Below are positions 2,117 through 22,385 of a DNA stretch of 57,467 nucleotides, piece by piece. The stretch's first letter is position 1. Each line of letters starts with the position of its first letter. The notes below the pieces were generated by a model, which worked only from the letters and a program-made list of their open reading frames with translations, ran no database searches and had not been told where the DNA came from. The translations under genes were made by a program, and so were the position numbers. The stretch covers positions 1 through 57,467 of the forward strand of contig CACGGD010000005.1 in assembly GCA_902572605.1 (NCBI GenBank), written 5' to 3'. The DNA comes from an uncultured Pelagibacteraceae bacterium (GTDB lineage Bacteria; Pseudomonadota; Alphaproteobacteria; Pelagibacterales; Pelagibacteraceae).

Positions 2117-2146
2117 TTTACAAAACTCCTCTTTTTTAATTATATG
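2117..2146 (+). promoter_or_regulatory. Putative promoter of the EPS-regulator gene
   Basis: TTTACA at 2117-2122 is a good -35 box. TATATG at 2141-2146, or the overlapping TTATAT one base earlier, is a plausible -10 box with 17-18 bases between them. The -10 overlaps the start of the palindrome at 2145. This 75-base gap is one of the few real spacers in the first 27 kb. Confidence 0.5.
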
Positions 2147-2161
2147 TTCAATATTTGAACA
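2145..2161. promoter_or_regulatory. 17-bp palindromic operator candidate 1 (TGTTCA-N5-TGAACA)
   Basis: TGTTCAATATTTGAACA is symmetric: TGTTCAA and TTGAACA are reverse complements around TAT. It overlaps the -10 box and lies 10 bases before the ATG of the MarR-type regulator, a position suited to autorepression. The same half-sites with the same 5-base spacer recur at 18526-18542. Confidence 0.65.
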
Positions 2162-2170
2162 AAAGAACTT

Positions 2171-2485
2171 ATGGAAAACAATAGAGAAGATGACCTGGAT
2201 GTTTTAAGAAAAATTAAGAAAAATCCCTCATCATCACAAAGAGAATTAGCCAAGGAATTGAATTTTAGTTTAGGTAAATTAAACTATTGTTTGAAATCTT
2301 TGAAGAATAAAGGATTTATAAAAATTAATAATTTTAGAAAAAATCCCAATAAATTAAATTACGCTTATGTTTTAACTCCAAAAGGTATTGCTGAAAAAAC
2401 GAAATTAACAATAGCGTTTATGAAGAGAAAAATGAATGAGTATGATGAACTTAAAAGAGAAATAGATAGTGATGAAAAAAAATAA
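2171..2485 (+). CDS. MarR-type EPS-associated transcriptional regulator
   Basis: This 104-aa protein is essentially one winged helix-turn-helix: the QRELAKELNFSLGKLNYCLKSLK stretch spans the recognition helices and the wing follows near residue 50. Length and pattern resemble the small 'EPS-associated MarR' family found in exopolysaccharide and O-antigen loci (recognised from memory). A perfect palindrome lies just upstream over the promoter, which suggests dimer binding and autoregulation. The following gene overlaps its 3' end by 14 bases, so the regulator is co-transcribed with the island genes. It likely also acts on the matching palindrome at 18526 (inference). Confidence 0.8.
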   Translation: MENNREDDLDVLRKIKKNPSSSQRELAKELNFSLGKLNYCLKSLKNKGFIKINNFRKNPNKLNYAYVLTPKGIAEKTKLTIAFMKRKMNEYDELKREIDSDEKK

Positions 2486-4978: not shown

Positions 4979-4987
4979 AAAATAAAG

Positions 4988-7934: not shown

Positions 7935-9096
7935 AAATATTTGTATAATTACAGGAAGTAGAGCGGATTATGATTTACTTAAACCCATAATAAAAGGTCT
8001 TTCAAAAATTAAGAAATTTAACGTTAAAACAATTATAACCGGCTCCCATTTTATAAAATTTCAGACATCAATAAATTTAATTAAAAAAGATAGAATTAAG
8101 ATTTTTAGAGAAATTAAAGTTCCATATAAAAATGACTCTAATTCTACAATTCTTAAATCAATAAGTCTAGGAATTGAAAAATTTGATGAAATATTTAAAA
8201 AAAATAAATTTGATCTTTTAATCGTTCTTGGTGATAGATACGAAATTTTTTCTGCTGTAATTAGTGCAAGTTTTTATAGAATCCCTATAGCCCATCTTTC
8301 AGGAGGAGAGGTTACGGAAGGAGCCATTGATGAGTCATTAAGACATTCAATAACTAAATTTTCTACTTTTCATTTTGCAAGTAATCAAGTTTATTTAAAA
8401 AGAATTAAACAGCTTGGAGAAAACCCAAAAAATATTTTCCATGTCGGTAGTACTACTGTTGAAAATGTTAATAAGGAAAAATTGTATTCTAGAAAAGATT
8501 TAGAAAAAAAACTTAATTTTGACTTTAAACAAGAAAATTATTTAATTACTTTTCATCCAGTAACTTTTCAGGAAGACTATGGCCTCAGAGATTTTAAAAC
8601 AATATTAAGTTACTTTGAAAAAAGAAAAAATATAGGAATAATATTTACAATTCCGAATTCGGACACAAAAAATTTTTTTATTTCTAAAATGATAAAAAAG
8701 TTCATTAAAAAAAATAAAAATTCAAAATATTATGGAAGCTTAGGAAGAATTAAATATTTTTCAGTTATTAAAAATGTAGACGCAGTAATTGGTAATTCTT
8801 CCAGCGGTTTATCGGAAGTTCCTAGTTTAAAAAGACCAACAATTAATATTGGAACAAGACAAAAAGGTCGACTTAGATCAAAAAGTGTAATTGATATCAA
8901 GAAAGTCACTTCAAAAAACCTTAAGGACTCTCTAAAAAAAATAAAAAACAAAAAATTTTTGAGGTTAGTTAATTCTTCCAGAAACCCTTATTTCAAAAGT
9001 AACACTACAAAAAATATTTTAAAGATAATAAGAAATTTAAATTTAAAAAAAGTAAATCAAAAAAAATTTTTTGACATGAAAGGAAATTTTAAATGA
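7918..9096 (+). CDS. legG: UDP/GDP-sugar 2-epimerase, hydrolysing (NeuC/LegG family)
   Basis: GT-B-fold epimerase of 392 aa with NeuC hallmarks: GSRADYDLLKPI at the N-terminus, LGDRYE, HLSGGEVTEGAIDESLRHS with the histidine-glutamate active-site cluster, FHPVT and GNSSSGLSEVPSL for nucleotide binding. It removes the nucleotide and inverts C2 to give the mannosamine-type substrate for LegI. In this locus the likely substrate is the diamino sugar made by LegB and LegC. The start overlaps legI by 17 bases and its end overlaps the amidotransferase by ATGA. Confidence 0.9.
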   Translation: MIKSGKNICIITGSRADYDLLKPIIKGLSKIKKFNVKTIITGSHFIKFQTSINLIKKDRIKIFREIKVPYKNDSNSTILKSISLGIEKFDEIFKKNKFDLLIVLGDRYEIFSAVISASFYRIPIAHLSGGEVTEGAIDESLRHSITKFSTFHFASNQVYLKRIKQLGENPKNIFHVGSTTVENVNKEKLYSRKDLEKKLNFDFKQENYLITFHPVTFQEDYGLRDFKTILSYFEKRKNIGIIFTIPNSDTKNFFISKMIKKFIKKNKNSKYYGSLGRIKYFSVIKNVDAVIGNSSSGLSEVPSLKRPTINIGTRQKGRLRSKSVIDIKKVTSKNLKDSLKKIKNKKFLRLVNSSRNPYFKSNTTKNILKIIRNLNLKKVNQKKFFDMKGNFK

Positions 9097-10211
9097 AAGA
9101 TATATTTTGGTGTAAAAATTGTGTTACCATGTCGACACGACCTAGAATAACTTTTGATAATCGGGGTTTTTGCAGTGCTTGCCAATGGAGTGAAGAAAAG
9201 AAAAAAATTGATTGGCAAAAAAGACAAAATAAACTTGAAACACTTTTAAAAGAACATAGATCAAATGGTTCAAAGTACGATTGCATAACAACAGTTAGTG
9301 GAGGCAAAGATGGATCTTACGTAAGCTATAATATTAAACATAAACATAAGATGAATCCTCTTGCAGTTACTTTTAGACCAATTATGGAAACTGAAATTGG
9401 CAAGAAAAATTTACATTCTTTTATTGATAGCGGCTATGATCATATTCATGTCACTCCTGACAAAGAAGCTATGAGAACCATAAATAAAATTGGATTAATT
9501 GATATGGGCTTTCCATATTATGGTTGGTTAATGGGTATTCATACAGGAGTTTTAAGAGTTGCTTTACAAATGAATATTCCTTTAGTTTTTTACTCGGAAG
9601 ACGGAGAGGTGGAGTATGGAGGAGACGCAAAATTTAAAGATCAAGGAGTGTATGATGTTGAATATCAGATTTCTAGATATATGGAAGGAGGATATCAAAA
9701 AATTATAGATAAGGCTAAAGATGAAGGAATGACCAATAGGCAACTTTATTGGTTTACCTACCCATCAAAAGAAGAATTAAAAAATTTTAATTTACAATTA
9801 ACACATTACGGTTTTTATGAAAATTGGGATCCTTATAGAAATTATGTATTAGCAAAAGAGAAATGTGGATTACAAGAAAGCCAAACTCTCAATCAAGGAA
9901 GTTATACAAATTTTGCTCAAACAGATCAAAAAATTTATGAATTACATGTTTATTTTATGTATTTAAAATTCGGATTTGGAAGAACAACTCAAGACGCAGG
10001 AATAGACGTAAGAAGAGGAGCAATGTCTAGATCTCAAGCAGTTCAATTAGTTCAAATGTACGATGATATTTATCCGGAGAAATTATTTGAGGAGTATTGT
10101 GATTACTACAAAATGAACATGAAAGATTTTCAAGAAAATATTGATAAGTGGGCAAATAAAGATTTATTTGAAAAGAAAAATAGGTGGGTGCCAAAATTCA
10201 AAATTAAATAA
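9093..10211 (+). CDS. N-acetyl sugar amidotransferase (PtmG/WbuX/PseA family)
   Basis: The 372-aa protein has an N-terminal zinc-ribbon-like pair of CxxC motifs (C7/C10 and C27/C30) and a PP-loop ATP pyrophosphatase motif SGGKDGS at 69-75. Members of this family activate the acetyl group of an N-acetyl sugar and replace its oxygen with nitrogen from glutamine, giving an acetamidino group. The two genes immediately downstream encode HisH- and HisF-like partners that supply and channel ammonia, the standard three-gene set known from WbpG/HisH2/HisF2 and WbuXYZ. Base and codon use look less extreme in A-tracts than in the neighbouring genes. Confidence 0.9.
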   Translation: MKDIFWCKNCVTMSTRPRITFDNRGFCSACQWSEEKKKIDWQKRQNKLETLLKEHRSNGSKYDCITTVSGGKDGSYVSYNIKHKHKMNPLAVTFRPIMETEIGKKNLHSFIDSGYDHIHVTPDKEAMRTINKIGLIDMGFPYYGWLMGIHTGVLRVALQMNIPLVFYSEDGEVEYGGDAKFKDQGVYDVEYQISRYMEGGYQKIIDKAKDEGMTNRQLYWFTYPSKEELKNFNLQLTHYGFYENWDPYRNYVLAKEKCGLQESQTLNQGSYTNFAQTDQKIYELHVYFMYLKFGFGRTTQDAGIDVRRGAMSRSQAVQLVQMYDDIYPEKLFEEYCDYYKMNMKDFQENIDKWANKDLFEKKNRWVPKFKIK

Positions 10212-10214
10212 GAT

Positions 10215-10853
10215 ATGACAGATTTAAAAACAAAAATTGGAATTATTAATTGTGATTTTGGAAATATTGCATCTCTTATAAATGCAATTAAACATCTAAA
10301 ATATAATTATGAAGTTCTTAAGAGACCTTCTGATCTAAAATTTATAACACATCTAATATTACCAGGCGTTGGATCATTTAATAAGTCAGCAAAAAGAATT
10401 AGAGAAACTGGATGGTCTGACGCAATTATTGATCACACTGCTAAGAAAAAGCCTTTTATGGGAATATGTTTAGGTATGCAACTAATGTTTGAAACGGGTT
10501 CAGAAAATGGAGAAGAGTCAGGAATTGGTTTGTTCAAAGGAAGATGTGAAGAATTTTCTAATAAAAATGAAATTAAATTACCCCATATGGGTTTTAATCT
10601 AGTGAGTCATTCTAATTCTAAAATTTGGAAAGATATACCTAACAACTCACCATTTTATTTTGTGCATTCGTATCGAATAGTAAATGACAAAAAAAATTGT
10701 GATAAAGAAGAATATATTTCAAATACATATTATGGAGAAGATTTTATATCATTTATTGAAAATGATAATATTTTTGGAGCACAGTTTCATCCAGAAAAGA
10801 GCCATAAAATTGGCCTTAAACTAATAAAAAATTTCGCAGAGATAAAAAACTAA
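10215..10853 (+). CDS. HisH-like glutaminase subunit for sugar amidotransferase
   Basis: A class I glutamine amidotransferase domain of 212 aa: nucleophile C85 in GICLGMQ and the H192/E194 pair in FHPEKSH complete the triad, and the PGVGSF oxyanion segment lies at 50-55. It releases ammonia from glutamine. Although it resembles the histidine enzyme HisH, it sits between the sugar amidotransferase and a HisF-like gene with no other histidine genes around. It therefore most likely belongs to the acetamidino-forming complex. Confidence 0.88.
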   Translation: MTDLKTKIGIINCDFGNIASLINAIKHLKYNYEVLKRPSDLKFITHLILPGVGSFNKSAKRIRETGWSDAIIDHTAKKKPFMGICLGMQLMFETGSENGEESGIGLFKGRCEEFSNKNEIKLPHMGFNLVSHSNSKIWKDIPNNSPFYFVHSYRIVNDKKNCDKEEYISNTYYGEDFISFIENDNIFGAQFHPEKSHKIGLKLIKNFAEIKN

Positions 10854-11638
10854 TGATTTACAAAAGAATAATTTATGCCCTTTTATATAGTCGTGGAGAA
10901 TTTCATTTGAGTAGAAATTTTAGACTGCAAAAAGTAGGAGATGTAAAATGGTTAAAAAATAATTTTGGATTTGGAGAAACTTGTGATTTTATTGATGAAT
11001 TAGTAATTATCAATGTTACTCCAAATCCAAGCGAAGCTGATTTTAATAATTTTTTTAAAGATATAAATGAATTAAGAGAAAAAATATTCTTGCCAATTAC
11101 TATTGGTGGTGGAATTAGAAAATTAGATCATGTTAGAAAATGTTTTGAAAATGGAGCAGATAAAATATTGGTAAATTTTCTAGCTCATAAAAATAAATTG
11201 GTTTGTGAGCAAATAGCAACAATATTTGGAGAGCAAGCTATATCAATTATGGTTGATTACAAAAAAGATGAAAAAAATTTGAGTTCCTATATTAATAGTG
11301 GAAAAGTCTTTTCTAAGACATTAAAAGAATTTATTGACTCTATGGAAAATTTAAAATTTGGGGAACTAATTTTAAATTCAATAGATCAAGATGGAACGGC
11401 TGCGGGACTGGATTTAGATTGTTTAGATTTAATTCCAAAAAAATTTAAAAATCCCATTTTAGTTATGGGTGGTGCAGGAAAACCAGAGCATTTTATTGAT
11501 GCATTGAGTCATGAAAAAATCTCTGGGGTTATAACTGCAAATCTTTTCAATTTTTTAGGAAAAGGATTGCAAGAAGCAAGAAATTTTTCAATTAAAAAAA
11601 ATATAAGACTAATAAAATTTGAAGGGGTAAATATATAA
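10853..11638 (+). CDS. HisF-like subunit of the acetamidino-sugar complex
   Basis: The 261-aa TIM barrel of the HisF family keeps PITIGGGIRKLDHVRKCFENGADKILVN and ILVMGGAGKPEHF phosphate-binding loops. The first strand reads IIYALLYSRGEF where true HisF has the catalytic aspartate of its DV segment; that residue seems replaced, while MVDYK keeps the second aspartate. This fits the WbuZ-type branch that only channels ammonia to the sugar amidotransferase. Its ATG overlaps the hisH-like stop as TAATG, so the two are translated together. Confidence 0.85.
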   Translation: MIYKRIIYALLYSRGEFHLSRNFRLQKVGDVKWLKNNFGFGETCDFIDELVIINVTPNPSEADFNNFFKDINELREKIFLPITIGGGIRKLDHVRKCFENGADKILVNFLAHKNKLVCEQIATIFGEQAISIMVDYKKDEKNLSSYINSGKVFSKTLKEFIDSMENLKFGELILNSIDQDGTAAGLDLDCLDLIPKKFKNPILVMGGAGKPEHFIDALSHEKISGVITANLFNFLGKGLQEARNFSIKKNIRLIKFEGVNI

Positions 11639-12718
11639 ATGCCAAATTTAAAAAAATTTTTGATTAATAAAGATAGAAAAATTAAAGATGCTCTTAAACT
11701 AATTGACAAAAACGGAGAAAAGACTTGTTTAGTTTACGATAAAAATAAAAAACTTTTTGGCTCTTTAACAGATGGAGATATTAGAAGAAAGATCTTAAGA
11801 AAAGGTAAAAGTATAAATGAAAGAATATATAAATTTTGTAATCGCAAAACTATATTCATAAAGGAAGGTAAAATTAATAAAAAAAAAATTAAACAGATTT
11901 TTTTAAGCAAAAAGATTGAAATACTTCCTCTTATAAATAGAAATGAAAGAATAACAAAAATAATATTAAAATCCGATATTTTTAAGAGAGTTCAAAGAAA
12001 AAAATTTAATAAAAGTATTTTATCTAAAATTAAAGTAGTTGTGATGGCTGGCGGAAAAGGTCAAAGGCTAGATCCTATTACAAGAATATTTCCAAAGCCT
12101 CTAGTTCCGATTAAAGATAAAACTGCAATAGAAAATATTATTGATAGTTTTTTTAAATTTGGAGTTAGAAAATTTTTCTTTGTAGTGAATTATAAAGCAG
12201 ACTTAATCAAGGCATATTTTAAAAACAAAAATTTTATGGGTAAAAAAATAGTATACATAAATGAGTCTAAGCCTCTTGGCACTGCTGGAGGTTTAGAAAA
12301 ACTTCGAGGAAAAATCAAAGGAAATTTTGTTGTTACAAATTGTGATGTTATTTTTGACTTTAATTTTAATGAACTTATAAAAACACACGTAAATAAAAAA
12401 AATGACTTAACTCTTGTTACTTCTAATCAGACTTCCATTCTACCTTATGGTGTTTGTAAAATTAATTCCCAAAATGAATTAATAAAAATACATGAAAAAC
12501 CAAAATATAAACATTTAATTACAACTGGTCTGTATATACTTAATTCTTCAATATTAAAATTAATACCTAAAAATAAGCTTTTAGACATGAATCAACTTAT
12601 TGAAATTTCAAAAATAAATAAAAAGAAAATTGGTATTTTTAAGATCAAACAAAAAAACTGGCAGGATATAGGCCAGCTACAAGAATATAAAAAGAAAGTA
12701 AATTTATTAAGTGTATAA
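11639..12718 (+). CDS. ptmE: Nucleotidyltransferase with N-terminal CBS pair (PtmE-like)
   Basis: Residues about 1-120 form a two-CBS-domain unit (LFGSLTDGDIRRKIL, IEILPLINRNERITKIILKSDI). Residues about 130-355 form a sugar nucleotidyltransferase with VVMAGGKGQRLDPITRIFPKPLVPI and the metal site VTNCDVIFD. The same fusion in Campylobacter PtmE makes GDP-glucosamine for legionaminic acid synthesis. The CBS pair probably senses a nucleotide. Its place between the amidotransferase set and the PtmF-like dehydrogenase supports the match. The exact NTP used cannot be read from sequence. Confidence 0.82.
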   Translation: MPNLKKFLINKDRKIKDALKLIDKNGEKTCLVYDKNKKLFGSLTDGDIRRKILRKGKSINERIYKFCNRKTIFIKEGKINKKKIKQIFLSKKIEILPLINRNERITKIILKSDIFKRVQRKKFNKSILSKIKVVVMAGGKGQRLDPITRIFPKPLVPIKDKTAIENIIDSFFKFGVRKFFFVVNYKADLIKAYFKNKNFMGKKIVYINESKPLGTAGGLEKLRGKIKGNFVVTNCDVIFDFNFNELIKTHVNKKNDLTLVTSNQTSILPYGVCKINSQNELIKIHEKPKYKHLITTGLYILNSSILKLIPKNKLLDMNQLIEISKINKKKIGIFKIKQKNWQDIGQLQEYKKKVNLLSV

Positions 12719-13610
12719 AAAAATTTTAATTATTGGACAAGGTTCAGCAGGTCAAAATCACTTTGGCGCATTAAAATCTATTAATAAAAAAGCTCAAATA
12801 ATTTTGACATCTTCAAGAAATTTTATCAAAACTTTTAAAAATAAAAATTACGAAAAATTAAGAAAATTAAATCCGGATTTATTTGTAGTTTGTTCTCCAG
12901 CGACTACTCATTTCAAATTTATTAAACTAATAGAGAGTCATTTTATAAAAAAAAATATTTTAATAGAAAAGCCTCTTTTTAGCAAAAGAGAAAAAACTCT
13001 TAAAAATTTAAAAAACAATTATTATGTAGGCTATAACTTAAGATTTCATCCAATTTTACAATTTTTAAAAGATTACATAAAAGGAAAAAAGTTTTTTTTC
13101 ATTCGAGTAATTTGTTCTTCTTTTCTTCCTAAATGGAGAAGTAAAAAAAACTATTCTAATACTGTAAGTGCTAATAAAAGATTTGGTGGTGGGGTAAAAC
13201 TAGAATTAAGCCATGAAATGGATTATTTGAGATGGATTTTTGGTAAAATTAAAATTATTAACTCATTCAATAAAAAAATATCAAATTTAAAAATTAATGT
13301 GGATGATGTTCTTTGTCTTCACGGAATAATAAAGAATAAAATATTTTTGAACTTAGATTTAAATTTTTTTTCAAGAATTGATATTAGAAAAATATTTATT
13401 GATGGAAATGACTTTAGCTTAGAAGCAGATCTTCTTTCAAATAAAATCAAGATAATCGAGAAAAACAAAAGAAAGATAATTATTAAAAGATTCAACTTAA
13501 AACAAACTTACATAAATGAACATCTAGATATATTAAAAAAAAGAAAATTTATTTGTACTTTCAAAGAAGCTTTGGAAAATCAAAAAATATTGGAGGCAAT
13601 CAAATCTTAA
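12711..13610 (+). CDS. ptmF: Gfo/Idh/MocA oxidoreductase (PtmF-like)
   Basis: The protein of 299 aa starts at GTG, overlapping ptmE by 8 bases. It has a dinucleotide-binding GQGSAGQNH motif, an EKPLF catalytic-lysine segment and GYNLRFHP, the classic Gfo/Idh/MocA pattern. The second half forms the sheet domain with an ELSHEMDYLRWIFG segment that would place the active-site histidine. The family oxidises or reduces sugar hydroxyls with NAD(P). The name PtmF is by analogy with the ptm locus order, not a proven reaction. Confidence 0.78.
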   Translation: MYKKILIIGQGSAGQNHFGALKSINKKAQIILTSSRNFIKTFKNKNYEKLRKLNPDLFVVCSPATTHFKFIKLIESHFIKKNILIEKPLFSKREKTLKNLKNNYYVGYNLRFHPILQFLKDYIKGKKFFFIRVICSSFLPKWRSKKNYSNTVSANKRFGGGVKLELSHEMDYLRWIFGKIKIINSFNKKISNLKINVDDVLCLHGIIKNKIFLNLDLNFFSRIDIRKIFIDGNDFSLEADLLSNKIKIIEKNKRKIIIKRFNLKQTYINEHLDILKKRKFICTFKEALENQKILEAIKS

Positions 13611-13611
13611 A

Positions 13612-14298
13612 ATGAATATACTTTGTACCATATGCGCTCGAAAAGGATCTAAGGAAATAAAAAATAAAAATATTAAAAATTTATTTGGAAAACCACTGAT
13701 TTTGCACACATTAGATTTAGCAAAAAAAATAAAAGTTTTTAATAAAATAGCAGTATCATCAGACTCTAAAAAAATTCTAAATATTTGCAAAAAAAAAAGT
13801 GATATATTAATTCATAGACCGAGACATCTTTCGAATGATACGATCCCAAAAATTCAAGTAATTAAACATGCTTTAAAATACTCAGAAAAAAAATTTAAAA
13901 CAAAGTATGATGCGATATTTGATCTAGATGTTACTTCACCTCTGAGATTAAAAAGTGATGTATATAAAGCTTTTAAAATTTTTAAAAGAAAAAAGGCTGA
14001 TAATTTAATTTCTGTAAATCCATCGCATAAAAATCCTTATTTCAATATGGTAGAAAAAAAGAATGGAAAATTAAAATTAGTTAAAGAAAATAAGAAAAAA
14101 TATTACTCAAGACAAAAAGCTCCCTCTGTGTTTGAAGTTAACGCCTCTATATATATTTGGAAAAGAAAAGCTTTATTTAAAAGTAAAACTATAATTAATA
14201 ATAATACTGTTATGTTTATAATGCCAAAATTAAGATCAATAGACATAGATAGTGATTATGATTTTAAACTGATAAAAGCTTTAAGAGGTATCAAATGA
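13612..14298 (+). CDS. legF: CMP-nonulosonate cytidylyltransferase (NeuA/LegF/PtmB family)
   Basis: The N-terminus NILCTICARKGSKEIKNKNIK is the CTP-binding signature of CMP-sialate synthetases, and FDLDVTSPLR supplies the metal-binding aspartates near residue 105. At 228 aa it is the compact form without the C-terminal phosphatase-like domain. It charges the nine-carbon acid with CMP, making the donor for glycosyltransferases. It follows the PtmF-like gene by one base and overlaps the SDR gene by ATGA. Confidence 0.87.
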   Translation: MNILCTICARKGSKEIKNKNIKNLFGKPLILHTLDLAKKIKVFNKIAVSSDSKKILNICKKKSDILIHRPRHLSNDTIPKIQVIKHALKYSEKKFKTKYDAIFDLDVTSPLRLKSDVYKAFKIFKRKKADNLISVNPSHKNPYFNMVEKKNGKLKLVKENKKKYYSRQKAPSVFEVNASIYIWKRKALFKSKTIINNNTVMFIMPKLRSIDIDSDYDFKLIKALRGIK

Positions 14299-15083
14299 CA
14301 TATCTGAAAAAATTTAGATTGAATAATAAAAAAGCTTACATATTAGGAGGATCTGGCACTATTGGATTTGAGATATGTAATGCTTTAAATGACTTTGGAG
14401 CAAAAGTGATAAATTTAGATAAAAAGTTTAATTCTAAATTGAAAAAAAATATTAAACAAATTAAATTCGATTTCAGTAATTTGAGTAAAATTGAAAAAAA
14501 ATTAAATCAAATTTTTAAAAAAGAAGGTTTGCCAGATATTTTTGTTAATTGCTCCTATGCCTTTACAAAAGATTGGCAAAGAAGTTCATTTAAAGAAGTA
14601 AATATTAATTCGATTAAAAAAAATGTCGACTTACAATTAAGCTCCAATATTTGGATCTCAAAAATTGTAGCTGAAAAAATGAGAAAAAATAGTATCAAAG
14701 GAAATATTATATTACTAAGTTCTATATATGGAGTTGTAGCTCAAGACTCTGAGGTTTACAAAAACACAAAAATAAAAGTAAATTCGATTTATTCTGCGGT
14801 GAAAGGAGCCTTAATAAACCATACTAAACAATTAGCGTCATACTACGGACAATTCTCAATACGAGTCAATATAATTAGTCCAGGAGGTATCAAAGGTAAA
14901 ATTGCAGGGAAAAGAAATAAACATAGCTCAAAATTTATAAAAAATTATTCAAAAAAAACTGCTTTAAAACGTATGGCTCTTCCAAGTGATATTGCGCCAG
15001 CTGTAATTTATTTAGTATCTGATGCAGGATCGTATGTTACTGGGTTCAATTTAATTATTGATGGTGGTTGGACTATTACTTAA
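14295..15083 (+). CDS. ptmA: Short-chain dehydrogenase (PtmA-like)
   Basis: A classical SDR of 262 aa: cofactor loop LGGSGTIGFEIC, serine in LLSSIYGVV, catalytic YSAVK and NIISPGGIKG downstream, ending in the family-typical IIDGGWTIT. In ptm loci an SDR of this kind accompanies PtmB and PtmF and acts on the amino-sugar route. The exact substrate is unproven. A related SDR lies at 19465, but that copy belongs to the radical SAM group. Confidence 0.78.
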   Translation: MTYLKKFRLNNKKAYILGGSGTIGFEICNALNDFGAKVINLDKKFNSKLKKNIKQIKFDFSNLSKIEKKLNQIFKKEGLPDIFVNCSYAFTKDWQRSSFKEVNINSIKKNVDLQLSSNIWISKIVAEKMRKNSIKGNIILLSSIYGVVAQDSEVYKNTKIKVNSIYSAVKGALINHTKQLASYYGQFSIRVNIISPGGIKGKIAGKRNKHSSKFIKNYSKKTALKRMALPSDIAPAVIYLVSDAGSYVTGFNLIIDGGWTIT

Positions 15084-15087
15084 TTTT

Positions 15088-16281
15088 ATGACAGAAAAAT
15101 TAATTCTTTTACTAATGCCAATTAAGTGTAGAAAGATTGATATAAATCGATATGACATAAAAGAATATGAAAAAATTTTTAATTATAAAGTTGAAATACA
15201 TGAATTAATTAATTTCTTGCATCCTGGTTTTGAAAAGTCTTTCATGAATAATGTTAAAGATAAAAGACTTAAGTCATTTTATAATTTCGAAAAATGGAAG
15301 GAATATTATTTAAAACTTAAGATAAAATATGGAAAAAATATTCTGATCATCAAAAATATAAGTAATAATAATTTAATCTCTTTAAAATTAAATTTATTTT
15401 TAAAAAAAAATAATGCTAAAATTATAGAATATTCTACAAATCAGTTTCCAATAAACCAAGAGAAAAAAAAATTTCTTAATTTAATTGAAAATTTGGTTCA
15501 TAGTTTATTTTTTAATCCTCGAAAAATAGTACTTTATTTTCTGCAAAATTTTTTAATTTTTATTGGTAAACTTTTAAACTTATTTCCGACTTACTTGATT
15601 AAAACAGGCAGCAAAAGTTTTGCGAATATTAAGACTCAAAAAAATATAAAGATCATAAATGGAAATAGTTTTGATTATAACATGTATTTAAAATCAAAAA
15701 TTAAAAAAACAATTAATAAAAATTATGGATTATTCTTAGAAGCACCAACACCACTTTTTTCAGGAGATATTTATATTGATGGAGAAAAATCAAATGCTAG
15801 GGGAACACCAGAAAAATGGTTTCCTTCGCTAGATAAATTTTTTACTAAAATTGAAAAGTTAAAAAAGATAAAGATTATGATTGTACCTCATCCAAAAATA
15901 AAACATAAAAAAAATAATCCAAACTATTATTTTGGTAGAAAAATTGTTTCAGAAAGTTTAGCTAATTTAGCTAAAAATTCTTCAGTCATAATTTCTAGGG
16001 ATAGCGCAGGATTTTCTTATGCTGCAATACATAATAAACCTGCAATTTTCATATATACGAATGAACTTTTAAATAAAAAAAATTTTTTTTTAAGCAACCA
16101 GAGATTTTTTGCTTCAGAGTTAGGCCTAAACCCTATAAATATTGATAATTATCTTAATGATAAAAATTTAGAGCAGCTGTTTAAATTTGATAAAAAAAAA
16201 TATCACTTATATGTAAAACAATATTTGACTAGTAGAAATGATAAAAAAAGTAACTGTGAACTTATTGGTAAATTAATTTAA
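15088..16281 (+). CDS. Putative GT-B-like glycosyltransferase, possibly nonulosonate transferase
   Basis: No firm family match. An upstream in-frame ATG at 15058 would overlap the previous gene by 26 bases; the ATG at 15088 just after its stop is preferred, giving 397 aa. The C-terminal half carries MIVPHPKI and, about 40 residues later, SVIISRDSAGFSYAAIHNKPAIFIY. This HP-then-serine pattern recalls nucleotide-sugar-binding halves of polysialyltransferase and CDP-glycerol transferase relatives. Lying beside CMP-sugar synthesis genes, transfer of the nonulosonic acid is an attractive guess. The N-terminal half is unlike anything I know. Confidence 0.7.
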   Translation: MTEKLILLLMPIKCRKIDINRYDIKEYEKIFNYKVEIHELINFLHPGFEKSFMNNVKDKRLKSFYNFEKWKEYYLKLKIKYGKNILIIKNISNNNLISLKLNLFLKKNNAKIIEYSTNQFPINQEKKKFLNLIENLVHSLFFNPRKIVLYFLQNFLIFIGKLLNLFPTYLIKTGSKSFANIKTQKNIKIINGNSFDYNMYLKSKIKKTINKNYGLFLEAPTPLFSGDIYIDGEKSNARGTPEKWFPSLDKFFTKIEKLKKIKIMIVPHPKIKHKKNNPNYYFGRKIVSESLANLAKNSSVIISRDSAGFSYAAIHNKPAIFIYTNELLNKKNFFLSNQRFFASELGLNPINIDNYLNDKNLEQLFKFDKKKYHLYVKQYLTSRNDKKSNCELIGKLI

Positions 16282-16291
16282 ATTTTTATAT

Positions 16292-17437
16292 ATGAAACAA
16301 ATTGGCCTTCATGAACCTTTTTTTACTGGAAAAGAAAAAAAGTATTTAATTAAATGTATTGATGAAAATTGGGTTTCATCTTCTGGAAAATTTTTAAATC
16401 TTTTCCAAAGGAAATTTCAAAATATAACGAAAGGTAAGTTTTTAAGTCCAGTTTTAAATGGAACAATTGGTCTTCACATTAGCATGATACAGGCAGGCGT
16501 GAGTAAAAATGATGAAGTGATAGTTCCTACCATAACTTTTGTTGCTACTATAAATTCTATTAAATATGTTGGTGCTTCACCATTATTTATGGATGTAGAT
16601 GAATACCTAAATATTGATGAACAAAAAACCATTGAATTTATTGAAAAAAAGACAATTTTTAATAATGGCTATACTTACAATAAAATTACTGGAAATAAAA
16701 TTAAGGCTCTCGTAGTTGTGCATACCTTTGGAAATGCAGCTAGAATAGAAAAAATATTTGAAATTTGTAAAAAAAGGAAAATAAAGTTAATCGAAGATGC
16801 TGCAGAAAGTTTAGGTACAAAATATAACTCAGGAAAATTTAGAAATAAACATACGGGAACTATAGGGGATTTTGGTATTTTTTCATTTAATGGAAATAAA
16901 ATTGTTACTTCTGGTAATGGAGGTATTGTTGTCTCTAAAAATAAAAAAGATAGTCTTAAAATTAATTATCTGATTTCTCAAGCTAAAGATGATAAAATTA
17001 ATTTTATACACAATGAAGTGGGTTATAATTATAAATTATCAAATATTTCTGCTGCATTAGGACTAGCTCAGTTAGAAAAATTAAATTTATTTATTAAAAG
17101 AAAAAAGAGCATAAGAGATTATTATAAAAAAAAAATTGAAACAATTAAAGGAGTTAAAATATTAGAGTCTCCAAAATATTCACAAAACAATAACTGGTTA
17201 AATTTAGTACAGATATCAAAAAAAGAAAAAATGAAAAAAATTATTAAAAAATTAAATTCAAATGGTTTTCAGTCAAGACCTATTTGGCATCCTAATCACA
17301 TGCAACAATCATTTAAAAAAAATTATAAATATAAAATTAAAAAAGCTGAAGAATTTGTAAAAAGTATAATTTGTTTACCATCAAGTGTAAGTCTTAAAAA
17401 TAAGCAAATTGATAAAATTATAAATTTGATTAAATAA
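16292..17437 (+). CDS. legC: DegT-family aminotransferase, LegC type
   Basis: PLP-dependent sugar aminotransferase of 381 aa. Key pieces are the N-terminal EPFFTGKEKKYL...NWVSSSG, VLNGTIGLHI, EVIVPTITFVATINSI, IEDAAESLGT with the PLP aspartate, and FSFNGNKIVTSGNGG with the Schiff-base lysine. The subgroup with this start motif accompanies LegB and adds the C4 amino group to the 4-keto-6-deoxy sugar. It completes the LegB-LegC-LegG-LegI-LegF path inside one transcript. Confidence 0.87.
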   Translation: MKQIGLHEPFFTGKEKKYLIKCIDENWVSSSGKFLNLFQRKFQNITKGKFLSPVLNGTIGLHISMIQAGVSKNDEVIVPTITFVATINSIKYVGASPLFMDVDEYLNIDEQKTIEFIEKKTIFNNGYTYNKITGNKIKALVVVHTFGNAARIEKIFEICKKRKIKLIEDAAESLGTKYNSGKFRNKHTGTIGDFGIFSFNGNKIVTSGNGGIVVSKNKKDSLKINYLISQAKDDKINFIHNEVGYNYKLSNISAALGLAQLEKLNLFIKRKKSIRDYYKKKIETIKGVKILESPKYSQNNNWLNLVQISKKEKMKKIIKKLNSNGFQSRPIWHPNHMQQSFKKNYKYKIKKAEEFVKSIICLPSSVSLKNKQIDKIINLIK

Positions 17438-17438
17438 T

Positions 17439-18515
17439 ATGAAAAATAAATTTCAAAAGTTAAAATCAATAAATAAAATTAAGAGAAATAGGGGAATTTT
17501 CTCTACTAGAAAAAATAAAATTAGACTGGATGCTAATGAAAGAATTTCGAGCTTTGATAAGAGCTTTTTAAAAGTAATTAAAAAAAAAATTTCATCTTTT
17601 CATTTTGCAGCTTATCCAGAAGTGGAAAAAATTTATGATATCTTGTCAAAAAAATATAAATTACCAAGATCTCATTTTTTAATAACATCTGGATCAGACT
17701 TTGGCATAAGGCATTGTTTTGAATTATTTACGCAAAAAAATTCAAAAATTATTACATTACACCCAACTTTTGGAATGGTAGATGTTTATGGTAAAGTATT
17801 TGAGACCAATCAAATAAAAATTAAATTTGATAAAGATCTAAAACTAAATTATTCAAAATTATTAAAATCTATCAACAAAAATATTGGTATGATAATGTTG
17901 GCTAACCCAAATAGTCCGACAGGAACTATTATAGATAGTGATAAAATAATAAAGATTATAAAAAAAGCTAAAAATAACAATTGTTATGTAGTAATCGACG
18001 AAGCCTATTTTGGATTCTATAAAAAAACTTTTTTACATTTTGTTAAAAAATTCAAAAACTTAATAATTTTGAGAACTTTTTCAAAAGCATTTGGATTAGC
18101 AGGAATAAGAGCTGGTTATATTGTATCTAATAAAAAACTGATTAAAAAATTATACTCCTTTAGGCCTATGTATGAAATAAGTTCTCTTTCTTGTTTAATA
18201 ATTGAAGAAATATTTAAAAAACAAAATCTAGTAAATGATTATATATCTTCAACTACAAAAGGAAAAAAGTATCTTATAACCGAATTAAATAAAATGGGAT
18301 TTGGACATTACGAGACCTATGCAAATTTTATATTGGTAGATTTTTATAAGAAACCTTTAGTAAAAAAAATCTATAAAAATTTAAGCAAAAGAGGAATTTT
18401 AGTACGTAAAGCTCCAGAAATAGAGGCAACTCGAACTTGCTTAAGGTTTACATTAGGTCCCACTAATTATATGAAAAAACTAGCTGAAAACCTTAGAAAA
18501 TATAGTAAAAAATAG
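17439..18515 (+). CDS. Class I/II aminotransferase, histidinol-phosphate (HisC)-like
   Basis: The 358-aa protein has the HisC layout: IRLDANE at the start, HFAAYPEVEKIY, LANPNSPTGT, VVIDEAYFGF and the PLP lysine in TFSKAFGLAGIRAGY. It may be a true HisC, but no other histidine genes are near and HisC-like enzymes also act on phosphonate, cobalamin and amino-alcohol substrates. It starts 2 bases after legC and is followed by a promoter-bearing gap. It is thus the last gene of the nonulosonate transcript but adjoins the radical SAM module. Confidence 0.8.
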   Translation: MKNKFQKLKSINKIKRNRGIFSTRKNKIRLDANERISSFDKSFLKVIKKKISSFHFAAYPEVEKIYDILSKKYKLPRSHFLITSGSDFGIRHCFELFTQKNSKIITLHPTFGMVDVYGKVFETNQIKIKFDKDLKLNYSKLLKSINKNIGMIMLANPNSPTGTIIDSDKIIKIIKKAKNNNCYVVIDEAYFGFYKKTFLHFVKKFKNLIILRTFSKAFGLAGIRAGYIVSNKKLIKKLYSFRPMYEISSLSCLIIEEIFKKQNLVNDYISSTTKGKKYLITELNKMGFGHYETYANFILVDFYKKPLVKKIYKNLSKRGILVRKAPEIEATRTCLRFTLGPTNYMKKLAENLRKYSKK

Positions 18516-18520
18516 GTTTT

Positions 18521-18549
18521 TTTACTGTTCACAAATTGAACAATAATGT
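18521..18549 (+). promoter_or_regulatory. Putative promoter of the radical SAM operon
   Basis: TTTACT at 18521-18526 and TAATGT at 18544-18549 are separated by exactly 17 bases. The 17-bp palindrome fills the spacer, overlapping only the last base of the -35 box. The gap at 18516-18565 is the only spacer above 40 bases between 2171 and 27502. Confidence 0.55.
18526..18542. promoter_or_regulatory. 17-bp palindromic operator candidate 2 (TGTTCA-N5-TGAACA)
   Basis: TGTTCACAAATTGAACA has outer half-sites identical to those at 2145-2161, with the same 5-base centre length and a different centre sequence. Identity in the arms and divergence in the middle is what a dimeric repressor site shows. Placement between the -35 and -10 boxes implies repression. 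Confidence 0.65.
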
Positions 18550-18565
18550 AATCTAAACATTAGAT

Positions 18566-19468
18566 ATGACAATACAAGCTTATAAAAGAACTAAGAAAAT
18601 AAACAAACAAATCAAAGTTAATATAGAGAGAAGAACGGTAATTGTTGATGATCAACTTGTTTATTTTAAAGATGTTCCAATTCCAAGTTGGATTGAACTA
18701 AGTCTAATAGACGTGTGCAATAGAAAATGTGTGTTTTGTCCAAAATCAGATCCATCTGTAGCACCTGACACTCATCAAAAAATGAACATGAGATTAATTG
18801 ATAAACTTTCTGAGGAATTAAAAAGAATTAATTATAAAGGTTCTGTCGTTCTTTGTGGTTACGGAGAACCAATGTTGCATAAAGATATTTACTCTATTTC
18901 TAGAAAGCTAGCAGAAGCCTCTTTCGTAGAGATAGTCACGAATGGTGATACATTAACAAAAGACTCGATAAGAAAACTTTACGATTCAAACGTAAATAAA
19001 TTATTAATTAGTTTGTATGATGGACCTGAACAAGTTTCAAAATTTAAAACAATGGCAGACTCAGCTCAGGTACCAAAAGATTTTGTTATTCTAAGAAATA
19101 GATGGTTTGATGAAAAGGAAGATTATGGACTTAAATTAACTAACAGGGCAGGTACAATTAAAGTTGGAAAGCAGGATAGTATAAAAACTTTTTCGCATTG
19201 CTTTTATCCATCTTACTCTGTGTTAATTGATTGGAATGGAGATGTGTTTCTATGCTCTCAAGATTGGCAGAGAAGAAGGACCATGGGAAATATAATGTTA
19301 GAGGACCTTTTTGAAATTTGGACTGGAAAAATGATTTCAAAATATCGAAAAAATCTTCTTAATGGAAAAAGATGTAATAGCCCTTGCACTGAATGCAACG
19401 CAGAAGGAACTGTTTTAGGTCATAAACATGCTGAAGCATGGAAAAAAATTTATAAAATAACGAAATGA
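18566..19468 (+). CDS. Radical SAM / SPASM-type protein A
   Basis: The 300-aa protein has the radical SAM cluster motif C51xxxC55xxC58 (DVCNRKCVFC), a GYGEP SAM-binding segment and VTNGD. The C-terminus holds a SPASM-like start (Cx12Gx4C in CFYPS...GDVFLC) plus CNSPCTEC, enough for at least one auxiliary iron-sulfur cluster. Such enzymes oxidise alcohols or rearrange sugars and peptides. A paralogue lies one gene downstream (20190), with an SDR between them. The substrate is unknown, perhaps a nucleotide sugar or a small precursor of a glycan substituent. Confidence 0.85.
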   Translation: MTIQAYKRTKKINKQIKVNIERRTVIVDDQLVYFKDVPIPSWIELSLIDVCNRKCVFCPKSDPSVAPDTHQKMNMRLIDKLSEELKRINYKGSVVLCGYGEPMLHKDIYSISRKLAEASFVEIVTNGDTLTKDSIRKLYDSNVNKLLISLYDGPEQVSKFKTMADSAQVPKDFVILRNRWFDEKEDYGLKLTNRAGTIKVGKQDSIKTFSHCFYPSYSVLIDWNGDVFLCSQDWQRRRTMGNIMLEDLFEIWTGKMISKYRKNLLNGKRCNSPCTECNAEGTVLGHKHAEAWKKIYKITK

Positions 19469-20193
19469 AAAAAACAACTTTAATAACTGGAGCAGGAAGG
19501 GGAATAGGATTAGAAATAGCTAAAATTTTTGCGTCAAAAAATGAAAATTTAATTTTAACAATTAGAAAATCTAATCAAAAAAAAAATATTCAAAATATAA
19601 TGAAAAATTATAATTGTCGATTTAAGATCTTTGTAGGAGATTTAAATAATTTAAATTTTATTAAAAAAATTGGTAAACAAATAGATTATGTAACAACAAT
19701 AATTAATAATGCTTCAGGAGAAAATCAAAAATACTTTACAGATGTTACCGAAAAAGATCTTACTGAGATGATCAACGTTAATTTGATTGCAAATTTTGTT
19801 TTGACAAAAATATTTGTAAAAAAGATGATAAAAAAAAAGATAAAAGGAAATGTAGTAAACATTGGATCTCAACTTGGGAAAATCGGGGCTTACAACAGAT
19901 CTATTTATTGTATGGCTAAATTTGGTGTTGAGGGACTTACAAAGGCTCTAGCTATGGATCTGGGAAAGTACGGTATAAGAGTGAACTCTGTGTCTCCAAC
20001 AAAAACAATAGTTAAAAAGTCAGAAATTAAAAATTCTAAAAGGTTAAATTTAATTAAGAAAAAAATTCCTTTAGGTAAATTTTCAACCACGGAAGAAATC
20101 GCTAAAATCGTATATTTTCTAACAACAAATTCCGCAGGAAGCATTACTGGAACATCAATTATGTCAGATGGAGGCTGGACAGCAGGAAAATGA
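19465..20193 (+). CDS. Short-chain dehydrogenase between two radical SAM genes
   Basis: A classical SDR of 242 aa with LITGAGRGIGLEIA, INNASG, NIGSQLG (catalytic serine), YCMAK (catalytic Tyr/Lys) and RVNSVSPTKT, ending MSDGGWTAGK. It overlaps both flanking radical SAM genes by the four-base ATGA, so the three are almost certainly one functional unit. It may carry out the NAD(P) step before or after radical chemistry. The resemblance to FabG is only family-level. Confidence 0.85.
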   Translation: MKKTTLITGAGRGIGLEIAKIFASKNENLILTIRKSNQKKNIQNIMKNYNCRFKIFVGDLNNLNFIKKIGKQIDYVTTIINNASGENQKYFTDVTEKDLTEMINVNLIANFVLTKIFVKKMIKKKIKGNVVNIGSQLGKIGAYNRSIYCMAKFGVEGLTKALAMDLGKYGIRVNSVSPTKTIVKKSEIKNSKRLNLIKKKIPLGKFSTTEEIAKIVYFLTTNSAGSITGTSIMSDGGWTAGK

Positions 20194-21086
20194 GTATAGA
20201 AGAAAAGAAATTTTATGATCCAAATATAGATAGAAAGTCTAAAATTTATGATGATTCATTCAAGATTTTAGAAGACGGCACACCATTACCATCTATTATA
20301 GAAATAAGTAACTCAGGAGTATGTAATAGAAAATGTTCGTTTTGTCCTAGAAGTGACCCCAACTATGATCATGTTAATGAATTTTTTCCAAATAGTCTTC
20401 ACGACAAATTGTGTAAAGATTTAGCTAAATATAAATTTAATGGGATTTTTGCCTACTGTGGTTTTAATGAACCACTACTTAAAAAAGATATTTATAGAGA
20501 CATTGCTTTTGTAAGAAAGACATTACCAGACTCAAAAATAGAAATTGTAACTAATGGTGACGTTCTAGATAAAGATAGACTAAAAAAATTGTACGACCAT
20601 GGATTAACTACCATTCTGATAAGTGTGTATGACGGTAAAAAAGAAGAAGATGGCTTTTATGAAATGTGTGAAAGTTTAAATCTAAAAAAAAGCCAATATG
20701 TAATAAGAAATAGATATTTACCTGAAGAGTTAGATTTTGGCTTAACACTTAGCAATCGAGCTGGAAATTTATCAAACGCAGAACATAAAATAGATAAATC
20801 AAATAAATATTCAGATAAACAATGTACTTATCCTAGTTACATGTTTTTTGTTGATTATAACGGAGATGTTTTAATGTGTTCTCACGATTGGTCAAAAGAG
20901 ATGATTTTAGGAAATTTAAAAAAAGATGATTTTTTAACAATTTGGAAATCAAAAAATTCAAATTTTGCTAGAAAAAATCTTAACGAAGCTAATAGATGTT
21001 TTAAACCTTGTAATAAGTGCGATGTTGTAGGAGACTTAGTGGGTAAAAAACATGTAGCTGCGTGGGATAAGGCTTTCAATAAATAA
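20190..21086 (+). CDS. Radical SAM / SPASM-type protein B (paralogue of A)
   Basis: The 298-aa protein has C45xxxC49xxC52 (GVCNRKCSFC), YCGFNEP, VTNGD, CTYPSYMFFVDYNGDVLMC and CFKPCNKC. It aligns with protein A throughout: RNR..., DFGL/DYGL, NRAG and the closing KHVAAW/KHAEAW match. The two arose by duplication and have diverged well, which suggests different steps or substrates rather than redundancy. The mid-region GYGEP of A is GFNEP here. Confidence 0.85.
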   Translation: MSIEEKKFYDPNIDRKSKIYDDSFKILEDGTPLPSIIEISNSGVCNRKCSFCPRSDPNYDHVNEFFPNSLHDKLCKDLAKYKFNGIFAYCGFNEPLLKKDIYRDIAFVRKTLPDSKIEIVTNGDVLDKDRLKKLYDHGLTTILISVYDGKKEEDGFYEMCESLNLKKSQYVIRNRYLPEELDFGLTLSNRAGNLSNAEHKIDKSNKYSDKQCTYPSYMFFVDYNGDVLMCSHDWSKEMILGNLKKDDFLTIWKSKNSNFARKNLNEANRCFKPCNKCDVVGDLVGKKHVAAWDKAFNK

Positions 21087-21092
21087 ATACTC

Positions 21093-22385
21093 ATGATCAG
21101 TACAAGTCAAAAAAAGGTAATATTTTTTTCCAAAGATTTAGTAAAAAAAAAAAATTATGCTCATAGTATTTTTTCTTACTTTGCAATTTTTGAAAAAAAT
21201 CCAGGTTCTTTTCTAATAAAAGCTATCATTAAAAAAAAAAATTATTTTTTTTTAATTATTAGCTCTCTAAGGCATATCTATGGAATAATAAACACAAAAC
21301 TTACAGCTATAAATTGTTTAGATCTAGATTGTAGTTATAAAAACATAATAGTCTCATGGGCTTTTAAAAATAATTTTAAAAAAAATGGTATTTTTTTTGA
21401 CAAATACTTAAAAAAAAGTTCTGCAGAATCAAGCAATATTATTTGGTTACTTATTTATATGGATAAAAAACTACCTGATAAGATTGGAAAAAATATTTTA
21501 CTAGTTCAACACAAAAAAAATTTCTTGAAAGGAATATATTTTTTTTTTAAATATTTTTTTGAATGTTTTAGCAATAATTTATTTAATGGAAATTTTTTTG
21601 GTAGGTTCAACTCTTTTTTCTCTTTTTCAAGTGAATTAACCAAGATTTACAAAAAAAATATAAATTTAGAAAAAATTAAAAATTTTTTAGTAGTTTATGA
21701 AGGTCAAATTTTTCAGAAAGAGCTTATAAAATTTAATAGAAATAATTTCAAAGATATTAAGAATATTGCTTATGATCATAGCGCACCTCCACCACTTCCA
21801 TTAAATTTAATATACGATAAATTTTCACCTGATTTTCTATACGTTACAGGCGGCGCTCAAGGAAAATTTTATAGAAAAAATTTGCTATGGCCAAAGAATA
21901 AAATTAAGATTACTAAACCTTTGAGATTTAAAGGAGAAAAAAAATCAAATTATACAAATAAATTGTTTCTTCCATATGAATTATATGATGAAAAAATCTA
22001 CTTAAAAAATTTAATATTTCTTCTAAATAAGGAAAAACTTAATATAAAAGATTATCATATTAAACTTCATCCTTTAAGATTTGAAAAAAAAAGTCACCTA
22101 ACTTTTTTAAATCAAATAAAAAATATAAATAACAAAAATTATAAAAAGAAAAGTTTTATTAATTCAGTATTTTTTGGACAAACTACGGCAGTAATAATAG
22201 CCCTAGAGTTTGGGATTACTTGTTATCATGTGTGTACGGAGTCGGAATTTGACAGTTATTCTAAAAATTTCTGGCCCGACATTAATATTCAACAATTGAA
22301 TAAGAATGTTTTTAAATACAGATTAAAAAAAAGAGGATCTTTCCTTAATTTTTCATCAAAACAGGATTTTAGCAAGTTATGTTAA
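21093..22385 (+). CDS. Putative GT-B-like transferase of unknown family (430 aa)
   Basis: No family recognised. The N-terminal half is very rich in Lys, Phe and Asn with long A tracts in the DNA. The C-terminal half shows YHIKLHPLRFE and, later, SVFFGQTTAVIIALEFGITCYHV, again a histidine-proline segment followed by a small-residue loop, as in GT-B transferases that bind nucleotide sugars. YVTGGAQGKF may be another loop. It overlaps the methyltransferase gene by 7 bases. Glycosyl transfer is the best guess. It does not look closely related to the orphan at 15088 beyond this pattern. Confidence 0.65.
   Translation: MISTSQKKVIFFSKDLVKKKNYAHSIFSYFAIFEKNPGSFLIKAIIKKKNYFFLIISSLRHIYGIINTKLTAINCLDLDCSYKNIIVSWAFKNNFKKNGIFFDKYLKKSSAESSNIIWLLIYMDKKLPDKIGKNILLVQHKKNFLKGIYFFFKYFFECFSNNLFNGNFFGRFNSFFSFSSELTKIYKKNINLEKIKNFLVVYEGQIFQKELIKFNRNNFKDIKNIAYDHSAPPPLPLNLIYDKFSPDFLYVTGGAQGKFYRKNLLWPKNKIKITKPLRFKGEKKSNYTNKLFLPYELYDEKIYLKNLIFLLNKEKLNIKDYHIKLHPLRFEKKSHLTFLNQIKNINNKNYKKKSFINSVFFGQTTAVIIALEFGITCYHVCTESEFDSYSKNFWPDINIQQLNKNVFKYRLKKRGSFLNFSSKQDFSKLC

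Follow-up and report, generated by a model that had tools for sequence, protein, structure and literature searches.

Two predicted modules built on BtrN-like radical SAM proteins in a SAR11 surface-sugar island

In a 57,467-bp stretch of DNA from an uncultured Pelagibacteraceae bacterium (assembly GCA_902572605.1, contig CACGGD010000005.1; hereafter the window), a short-chain dehydrogenase/reductase (SDR) gene is flanked by two genes for radical S-adenosylmethionine (SAM) proteins, rSAM1 and rSAM2. Sequence comparison predicts that both are BtrN-like proteins with a twitch domain; BtrN, the 2-deoxy-scyllo-inosamine dehydrogenase of butirosin synthesis (PDB 4M7S and 4M7T), is the closest relative of solved structure for both by sequence and, for rSAM1, also by predicted fold. 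Judged from gene orders and trees, the window appears to be the meeting point of two modules, one comprising a HisC-like aminotransferase and rSAM2 (with a further gene, g21093) and the other comprising rSAM1 and the SDR (SDRx). The reading towards which we lean is that a BtrN-like radical SAM protein converts a hydroxyl group of a sugar into a ketone, on which either an aminotransferase or an SDR would then act, with two such modules in the window.

Gene organization and relationship to BtrN

The genes of the locus are as follows (coordinates are those of the window):

17439..18515, plus strand: HisC-like pyridoxal phosphate (PLP) aminotransferase, fold type I (TIGR01141 below cut-off; Aminotran_1_2 match)
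18566..19468, plus strand: rSAM1, predicted BtrN-like twitch radical SAM protein, 300 amino acids (BtrN E 1e-20; model nearest to BtrN, Z 15.7)
19465..20193, plus strand: SDRx, classical SDR, 242 amino acids (adh_short_C2; TGAGRGIG and YxxxK motifs)
20190..21086, plus strand: rSAM2, predicted BtrN-like twitch radical SAM protein of a second clade, 298 amino acids (BtrN E 6.4e-24; SpeY 4.3e-6)
21093..22385, plus strand: g21093 (cluster c8), family without assignment, tied to rSAM2 (22 cluster members, all in rSAM2-clade stretches)

The run of three open reading frames (ORFs) is open as the first-pass annotation described it, including the ATGA overlaps at both the rSAM1/SDRx and SDRx/rSAM2 junctions; the gaps from the HisC-like gene to rSAM1 and from rSAM2 to g21093 are 50 and 6 nt, respectively. 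The radical SAM proteins form a paralogous pair, as had been noted (41–42% identity; both match Pfam Radical_SAM), and are the sole two copies in their own genome (E ≤ 0.001; 909,068 bases, 13 contigs). The gene preceding rSAM1 is indeed HisC-like: its product scores 237.8 bits with the NCBIfam HisC model, below the cut-off of 276.55 bits for a histidinol-phosphate aminotransferase, and the nearest other HisC-like copy in the same genome is 29% identical.

Neither rSAM1 nor rSAM2 reached the cut-off of any NCBIfam equivalog (best 25 of 39 and best 25 of 30 families, respectively). In a sequence search of the PDB, BtrN came first for both proteins with near full-length alignments, followed by BlsE (4.3e-4) for rSAM1 and by 7wzv, which is SpeY according to its structure title, for rSAM2. 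The identity between rSAM1 and BtrN is about 23–26%. The fold comparison covers rSAM1, for which an AlphaFold2 model was built from 8 sequences only. Foldseek ranked BtrN first for this model (5.6e-10), then SpeY (third chain) and AbmM, and VIA-align gave BtrN a Z score of 15.7 (205 residues, 3.6 Å), compared with 11.3 for PqqE, 10.7 for BlsE, 9.8 for DesII, and 9.2 for SpeY. SpeY (PDB 7WZV, 7WZX, and 7X0B) is by its name also a twitch radical SAM dehydrogenase but lies clearly farther than BtrN from the rSAM1 model.

Residue conservation was counted over 76 SAR11 sequences, three long-branched ones having been excluded beforehand. The CX3CX2C motif of the SAM cluster (C51/C55/C58 in rSAM1 and C45/C49/C52 in rSAM2) is present in 76/76, and the four cysteines of the auxiliary cluster (C169/C187/C232/C235 in BtrN; C212/C230/C274/C277 in rSAM1) are kept in all 75 scored sequences. 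Arg152 is an active-site residue of BtrN, and the corresponding column is also Arg in 75/75 scored sequences (R194 in rSAM1 and R190 in rSAM2). Two further arginines, R177 (76/76) and R179 (75/76), are without counterpart in BtrN and could bind an acidic group. As excerpted from PMC9012708, BtrN oxidises an amino-cyclitol alcohol by two electrons and holds its auxiliary cluster with four cysteine ligands.

Both proteins match the 67-residue Pfam SPASM profile, the matched part being the SPASM half, and the general SPASM domain model of NCBIfam was passed by rSAM2 alone (27.8 bits versus 27). The SPASM-like cysteines of the first-pass annotation were nevertheless an overstatement. After C230 only C270, C274, and C277 follow and neither protein has a cysteine beyond C277, which fits a one-cluster twitch domain and rules out a SPASM enzyme with the seven-cysteine motif and a second auxiliary cluster.

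In sum, the SAR11 proteins share with BtrN the cluster cysteines, Arg152, and several further residues, but differ in having an extra N-terminus, R177 and R179, and a surface-sugar island as their context. No butirosin-type cyclase or DegT aminotransferase is shown as a partner in the window, and no AroB-like cyclase (2-deoxy-scyllo-inosose synthase type) was found among the ORFs of >80 amino acids in its first 28 kb. A close characterised relative exists, but the reaction of BtrN is not thereby assigned to a SAR11 substrate.

Distribution in SAR11 and partner genes

Relatives of the radical SAM proteins were found in 19 of 197 SAR11 genomes drawn from the order (E ≤ 1e-20), 46 of 397 drawn from the family (E ≤ 1e-25), 26 of 169 from the window's own genus, and 29 of 329 from the genus of genome G060; these draws overlap. 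Gene orders were compared in 76 stretches, namely the window and 75 fetched around listed matches (individual stretches and genomes are denoted by L and G numbers). The radical SAM tree contains 76 rows in three clades, three long-branched rows, and BtrN; a 95-residue fragment (L060) was omitted. The clades comprise 32 rSAM1, 30 rSAM2, and 14 third-clade members.

The rSAM1/SDR/rSAM2 trio occurs in 3 of the 76 stretches, the window, L096, and L097; L096 and L097 were taken to lie on the contigs of L004 and L003, respectively. Since 29/32 rSAM1 and 27/30 rSAM2 genes lie outside the trio and 3 of each inside it, the two genes are frequently found without this arrangement, an outcome that the first-pass annotation had itself named as refuting its proposal, and the trio as one conserved system was rejected. 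One genome (G451) has one rSAM1 and one rSAM2 about 22 kb apart. In the tree, rSAM1 and rSAM2 appear as separate old clades whose members mostly reside apart from each other. The position of the pair in two distinct supported clades rules out a recent tandem duplication and supports the earlier suggestion that two separate reactions are involved.

In a wider search among 299 genomes from the phylum, 17 matched an 8-sequence profile (E ≤ 1e-15, the window's own genome included). Only two non-SAR11 genomes were close (E about 1e-72; G902 and G846, stretches L210 and L211); in these the gene adjoins a Gfo/Idh-type oxidoreductase gene, and no sugar island is visible in the surrounding stretches. 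A phage origin was rejected, viral contigs having yielded no relative of rSAM2 and a single distant, partial match to rSAM1 (26% identity over residues 39–137). In L044, L047, and L059, the radical SAM gene lies directly 3' of the 23S ribosomal RNA (rRNA) gene, and the island thus abuts the rRNA operon.

The partner genes divide along the same clades. In the SDR tree, SDRx forms a clade of 7 rows (support 100), all of which directly adjoin an rSAM1 gene, and SDR-b a clade of 19 rows (support 99), all in rSAM2-clade stretches. The SDR of the window falls in the SDRx clade and therefore belongs with rSAM1, not with rSAM2. Two other groups were recovered: SDR-a (7 rows, support 99), each member of which lies beside KdsB-like and AroB-like genes, and the PtmA group (4 rows, support 99). 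A class-III aminotransferase cluster (AT3) has 18/18 members in rSAM1-clade stretches, and the HisC cluster (10/10) and the g21093 cluster (22/22) are confined to rSAM2-clade stretches.

Within each clade, the aminotransferase and the SDR appear to replace each other. Within 6 genes of the 32 rSAM1 genes, there are 17 with AT3 only, 7 with SDRx only, none with both, and 8 with neither (Fisher p 0.0019), and within 3 genes of the 30 rSAM2 genes the corresponding numbers for HisC and SDR-b are 9, 17, 0, and 4 (Fisher p 5e-5); both p values overstate the association, because partner switches are few and the counts run over related genes. When the distance for rSAM2 was extended to 6 genes, the numbers became 9, 18, 1, and 2. 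Near kin with differing partners were found in both clades: L041 (aminotransferase) and L158 (SDRx), with a support of 95, and L054 (SDR-b) and L111 (HisC), with a support of 87.

Some further genes recur around the radical SAM genes. A gene that we take to be old-yellow-enzyme-like and a gene of about 160 amino acids without a Pfam match occur near rSAM1 with either type of partner (in L043, L044, L045, L046, L048, L049, L118, L119, L158, L167, L169, L170, and L173). The product of g21093 in the window has no Pfam match, gave only matches with E values of 0.49–0.53 in a PDB profile search, and yielded a poor model, with a mean predicted local distance difference test score (pLDDT) of 49.2; a near-invariant His-Pro tentatively hints at a putative glycosyltransferase.

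Proposed reaction, competing explanations and substrate

Aminotransferases and NAD(P)-dependent reductases both take a carbonyl, and since the two replace each other here, the product of the radical SAM protein is suggested to be a carbonyl compound. Alcohol oxidation is the likeliest route to it, since BtrN is the nearest relative and all of the BtrN cluster ligands are kept. In the proposed reaction, rSAM1 or rSAM2 would act on a surface-sugar precursor by abstracting a hydrogen atom from a carbinol carbon; the hydroxyl would become a ketone, and the second electron would pass to the auxiliary cluster. A PLP aminotransferase would then convert the ketone to an amine, or an SDR would reduce it to a reset alcohol, perhaps with inverted configuration. 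In the window, the HisC-like aminotransferase and rSAM2 (with g21093) would install an amino group, and rSAM1 and SDRx would yield a reset alcohol. The genes, their family relation, the kept cluster ligands, the clades, and the patterns of partners are observed, whereas we infer dehydrogenation, as opposed to another radical outcome, and likewise the step order, the stereochemistry, and the substrate. Of the first-pass interpretation, the idea of a radical oxidation on whose product an SDR or a transamination then acts is supported, but not the trio as one system or the proteins as SPASM enzymes.

Several observations weigh against oxidation followed by an interchangeable second step. The confidence of the rSAM1 model is modest (mean pLDDT 62.5). 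The distribution of partners requires no more than 4 changes on the rSAM2 tree and 3 on the rSAM1 tree; an independent-pair test of partner exclusivity was not significant and cannot reach significance. Eight of the 32 rSAM1 genes are without either partner within 6 genes, including L119, which lies near a contig edge, and L175, which has AT3 8 genes away. The rSAM1 gene of L113 (71% identical), another of these eight, is located outside any sugar island, beside genes that we take to be uvrB and a pterin-type SDR gene. L117 carries AT3 plus an SDR of an unrelated clade, L158 carries SDRx and, two genes upstream, a class-III-like aminotransferase other than AT3, and L055 has SDR-b and, six genes away, a 32%-identical HisC. 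Finally, a radical dehydration would equally yield a ketone for reduction or amination.

The last point leads to the main rival, which we regard as unlikely: a radical diol dehydratase with a reductase of the AprD4/AprD3 type, in which a deoxy-ketone would be formed and then reduced by the SDR to a deoxy sugar. In apramycin synthesis, as excerpted from PMC5461906, the diol dehydratase AprD4 pairs with the NADPH-dependent reductase AprD3, a radical SAM protein and an NAD(P)H-dependent reductase acting on a sugar much as rSAM1 and SDRx would; that system differs in carrying out dehydration and reduction instead of alcohol oxidation, a distinction drawn from its description, not from sequence. 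The swap between aminotransferase and SDR cannot separate a dehydratase from a dehydrogenase, because both give a carbonyl. DesII, in the excerpt of PMC11434129, is a deaminase or a dehydrogenase depending on the leaving group; lyase and dehydrogenase outcomes can therefore lie close together, and the identity of the product is not readable from sequence. Against a dehydratase, all four auxiliary cysteines of BtrN are kept, and the closest relatives found are the dehydrogenases BtrN and SpeY, AprD4 lying outside that comparison (its absence from the listed fold matches of the rSAM1 model carries no weight on relatedness).

It is still less probable that the radical SAM proteins are epimerases or other redox-neutral sugar enzymes, with the SDR and the aminotransferase taking part in other, unrelated reactions encoded by the island. 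The mosaic nature of the islands is consistent with such a view, as is the lack of a partner for 8/32 rSAM1 genes (within 6 genes) and for 4/30 rSAM2 genes (within 3 genes). Close homologues of a KdsB-like enzyme commonly found near rSAM2 are also often located in genomes without a radical SAM match (22 of 32 places, E ≤ 1e-50), which rules out this enzyme as an exclusive rSAM2 partner. The exclusivity of the partners and the dedicated SDR clades that track each radical SAM clade argue against redox-neutral chemistry. Maturases of ribosomally synthesized and post-translationally modified peptides, at which the SPASM match and weak matches to peptide or metalloenzyme maturase profiles (far under cut-offs) might hint, are highly improbable given the BtrN match, the sugar context, and the lack of a free-standing precursor gene in 18300–21300, where each of the 32 ORFs of 20–79 amino acids shares half or more of its length with a longer gene.

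Returning to oxidation by BtrN-like proteins, the surroundings of the locus form a surface-sugar island and are themselves equipped for a nonulosonate (NeuB and NeuC). Besides these two, an N-acetyl sugar amidotransferase (WbuX), a LegC-family aminotransferase, a CDP-glucose 4,6-dehydratase, and MarR_EPS score above NCBIfam cut-offs, and matches to LegB, PseF, and PtmA fall under them. The region 3983–17437 contains a legionaminate-like nonulosonate cluster with a WbuX-type amidotransferase and genes that we take to be HisH/HisF-like, which suggests an amidino-bearing sugar.

In the rSAM2 clade, a KdsB-like CMP-ulosonate synthetase (c9) is encoded within four genes in 22/30 stretches, the copy in L051 scoring above the PRK13368 cut-off. 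A DmpG-like aldolase within three genes (11/30) and an AroB-like cyclase within five genes (8/30) never occur together; the cyclase accompanies HisC in L052, L098, L101, and L103 and SDR-b in L053, L104, L110, and L159. Neighbours of this sort suggest acids that are ulosonate-like or carbocyclic. None of the KdsB-like, DmpG-like, AroB-like, or third-clade neighbour genes occurs in the three stretches with the trio; for the window itself, the likeliest candidate substrate is an acidic surface sugar of nonulosonate/ulosonate type. The third clade has neighbours of its own, including 3-deoxy-D-arabino-heptulosonate 7-phosphate-synthase-like, AroE-like, and Gfo/Idh genes (L056, L057, L058, L115, L166, L171, L178, and L180), and some of its stretches also encode a HisC-like protein together with a cytidylyltransferase-methyltransferase fusion, which may mark a further pathway.

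The butirosin route combines BtrN with the cyclase BtrC and the aminotransferase BtrS. The eight cyclase-bearing rSAM2-clade stretches, four of them with HisC, resemble this route, from which the SAR11 loci differ in that the window is without a cyclase, the aminotransferase is HisC-like, and a KdsB-like cytidylyltransferase is added. A wider scheme, which we put forward tentatively and consider unlikely, is that SAR11 islands build amino- or carba-ulosonate-like surface sugars with BtrN-type enzymes. In this scheme, the cyclase (AroB-like) or the aldolase (DmpG-like) encoded beside rSAM2 relatives would make a 3-deoxy-ulosonate-like skeleton, either carbocyclic or open-chain, rSAM2 would oxidise a hydroxyl, HisC or an SDR would complete the step, the KdsB-like enzyme would activate the product with CMP, and g21093 would transfer it. 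The logic of aminocyclitol antibiotics would then serve the cell surface, and the two modules of the window would be one combination from a kit.

Predicted operator and implications

Three features concern the regulation of the island:

2145..2161, strand not applicable: second perfect copy of the palindrome, 5' of the regulator gene (motif scan)
2171..2485, plus strand: MarR_EPS regulator (TIGR04176, 133.6 bits versus a cut-off of 88)
18526..18542, strand not applicable: perfect palindrome TGTTC-N7-GAACA, 5' of rSAM1 (probable MarR_EPS operator)

The two palindromes are the only perfect copies in the window. Within the window alone, chance could account for the motif (3 matches with ≤1 mismatch compared with 1.77 expected, and at least as many in 23 of 100 shuffles). 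Across the 76 SAR11 stretches it exceeds chance: 27 perfect copies occur in 1,212,119 bases, compared with 0.45 in plain shuffles. With ≤1 mismatch and within 150 bases upstream, the palindrome precedes 16/19 MarR_EPS, 9/34 rSAM1-type, 4/44 rSAM2-type, and 30/1041 other genes, several of the last sharing an intergenic stretch with a counted gene. These distributions suggest that the palindrome is probably read by the MarR_EPS regulator as its operator. The copy 5' of rSAM1 is kept in L003 as TGTTCAAACTTTGAACA and is absent in L004, where the HisC and rSAM1 genes overlap. The first-pass annotation had assigned to the trio an operator-containing promoter of its own. The operator is real across the 76 stretches, but it is a general island operator, and a promoter consensus scan of the window remained at the level of shuffles (54 sites versus 49.9). 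The palindrome precedes many SAR11 island operons, which may constitute a MarR_EPS regulon. In L043, L044, L118, and L170, rSAM1 is fused behind a MarR-like N-terminus (429–436 amino acids), placing regulator and enzyme in one protein.

The hypervariable sugar islands of SAR11 are thought to be shaped by phages. Titles and abstract openings in the open literature, with most subscription papers outside this scope, gave no account of such radical SAM proteins from sugar islands of SAR11 and nothing on radical SAM enzymes with nonulosonic acid, on SpeY, on aminocyclitols with a sugar phosphate cyclase, or on SAR11 with legionaminic acid. SAR11 bacteria are among the most abundant cells of the ocean (excerpt of PMC7029224). 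Named gene pairs are now at hand for in vitro tests of the products. If the proposed reaction is correct, BtrN chemistry, known from the making of antibiotics, would have been carried into the making of surface sugars, and a dehydrogenase with an interchangeable second step would be a simple way to diversify sugars from one precursor: with one gene changed, the surface would be changed, resulting in a modular variation of the sugar coat of the cell.

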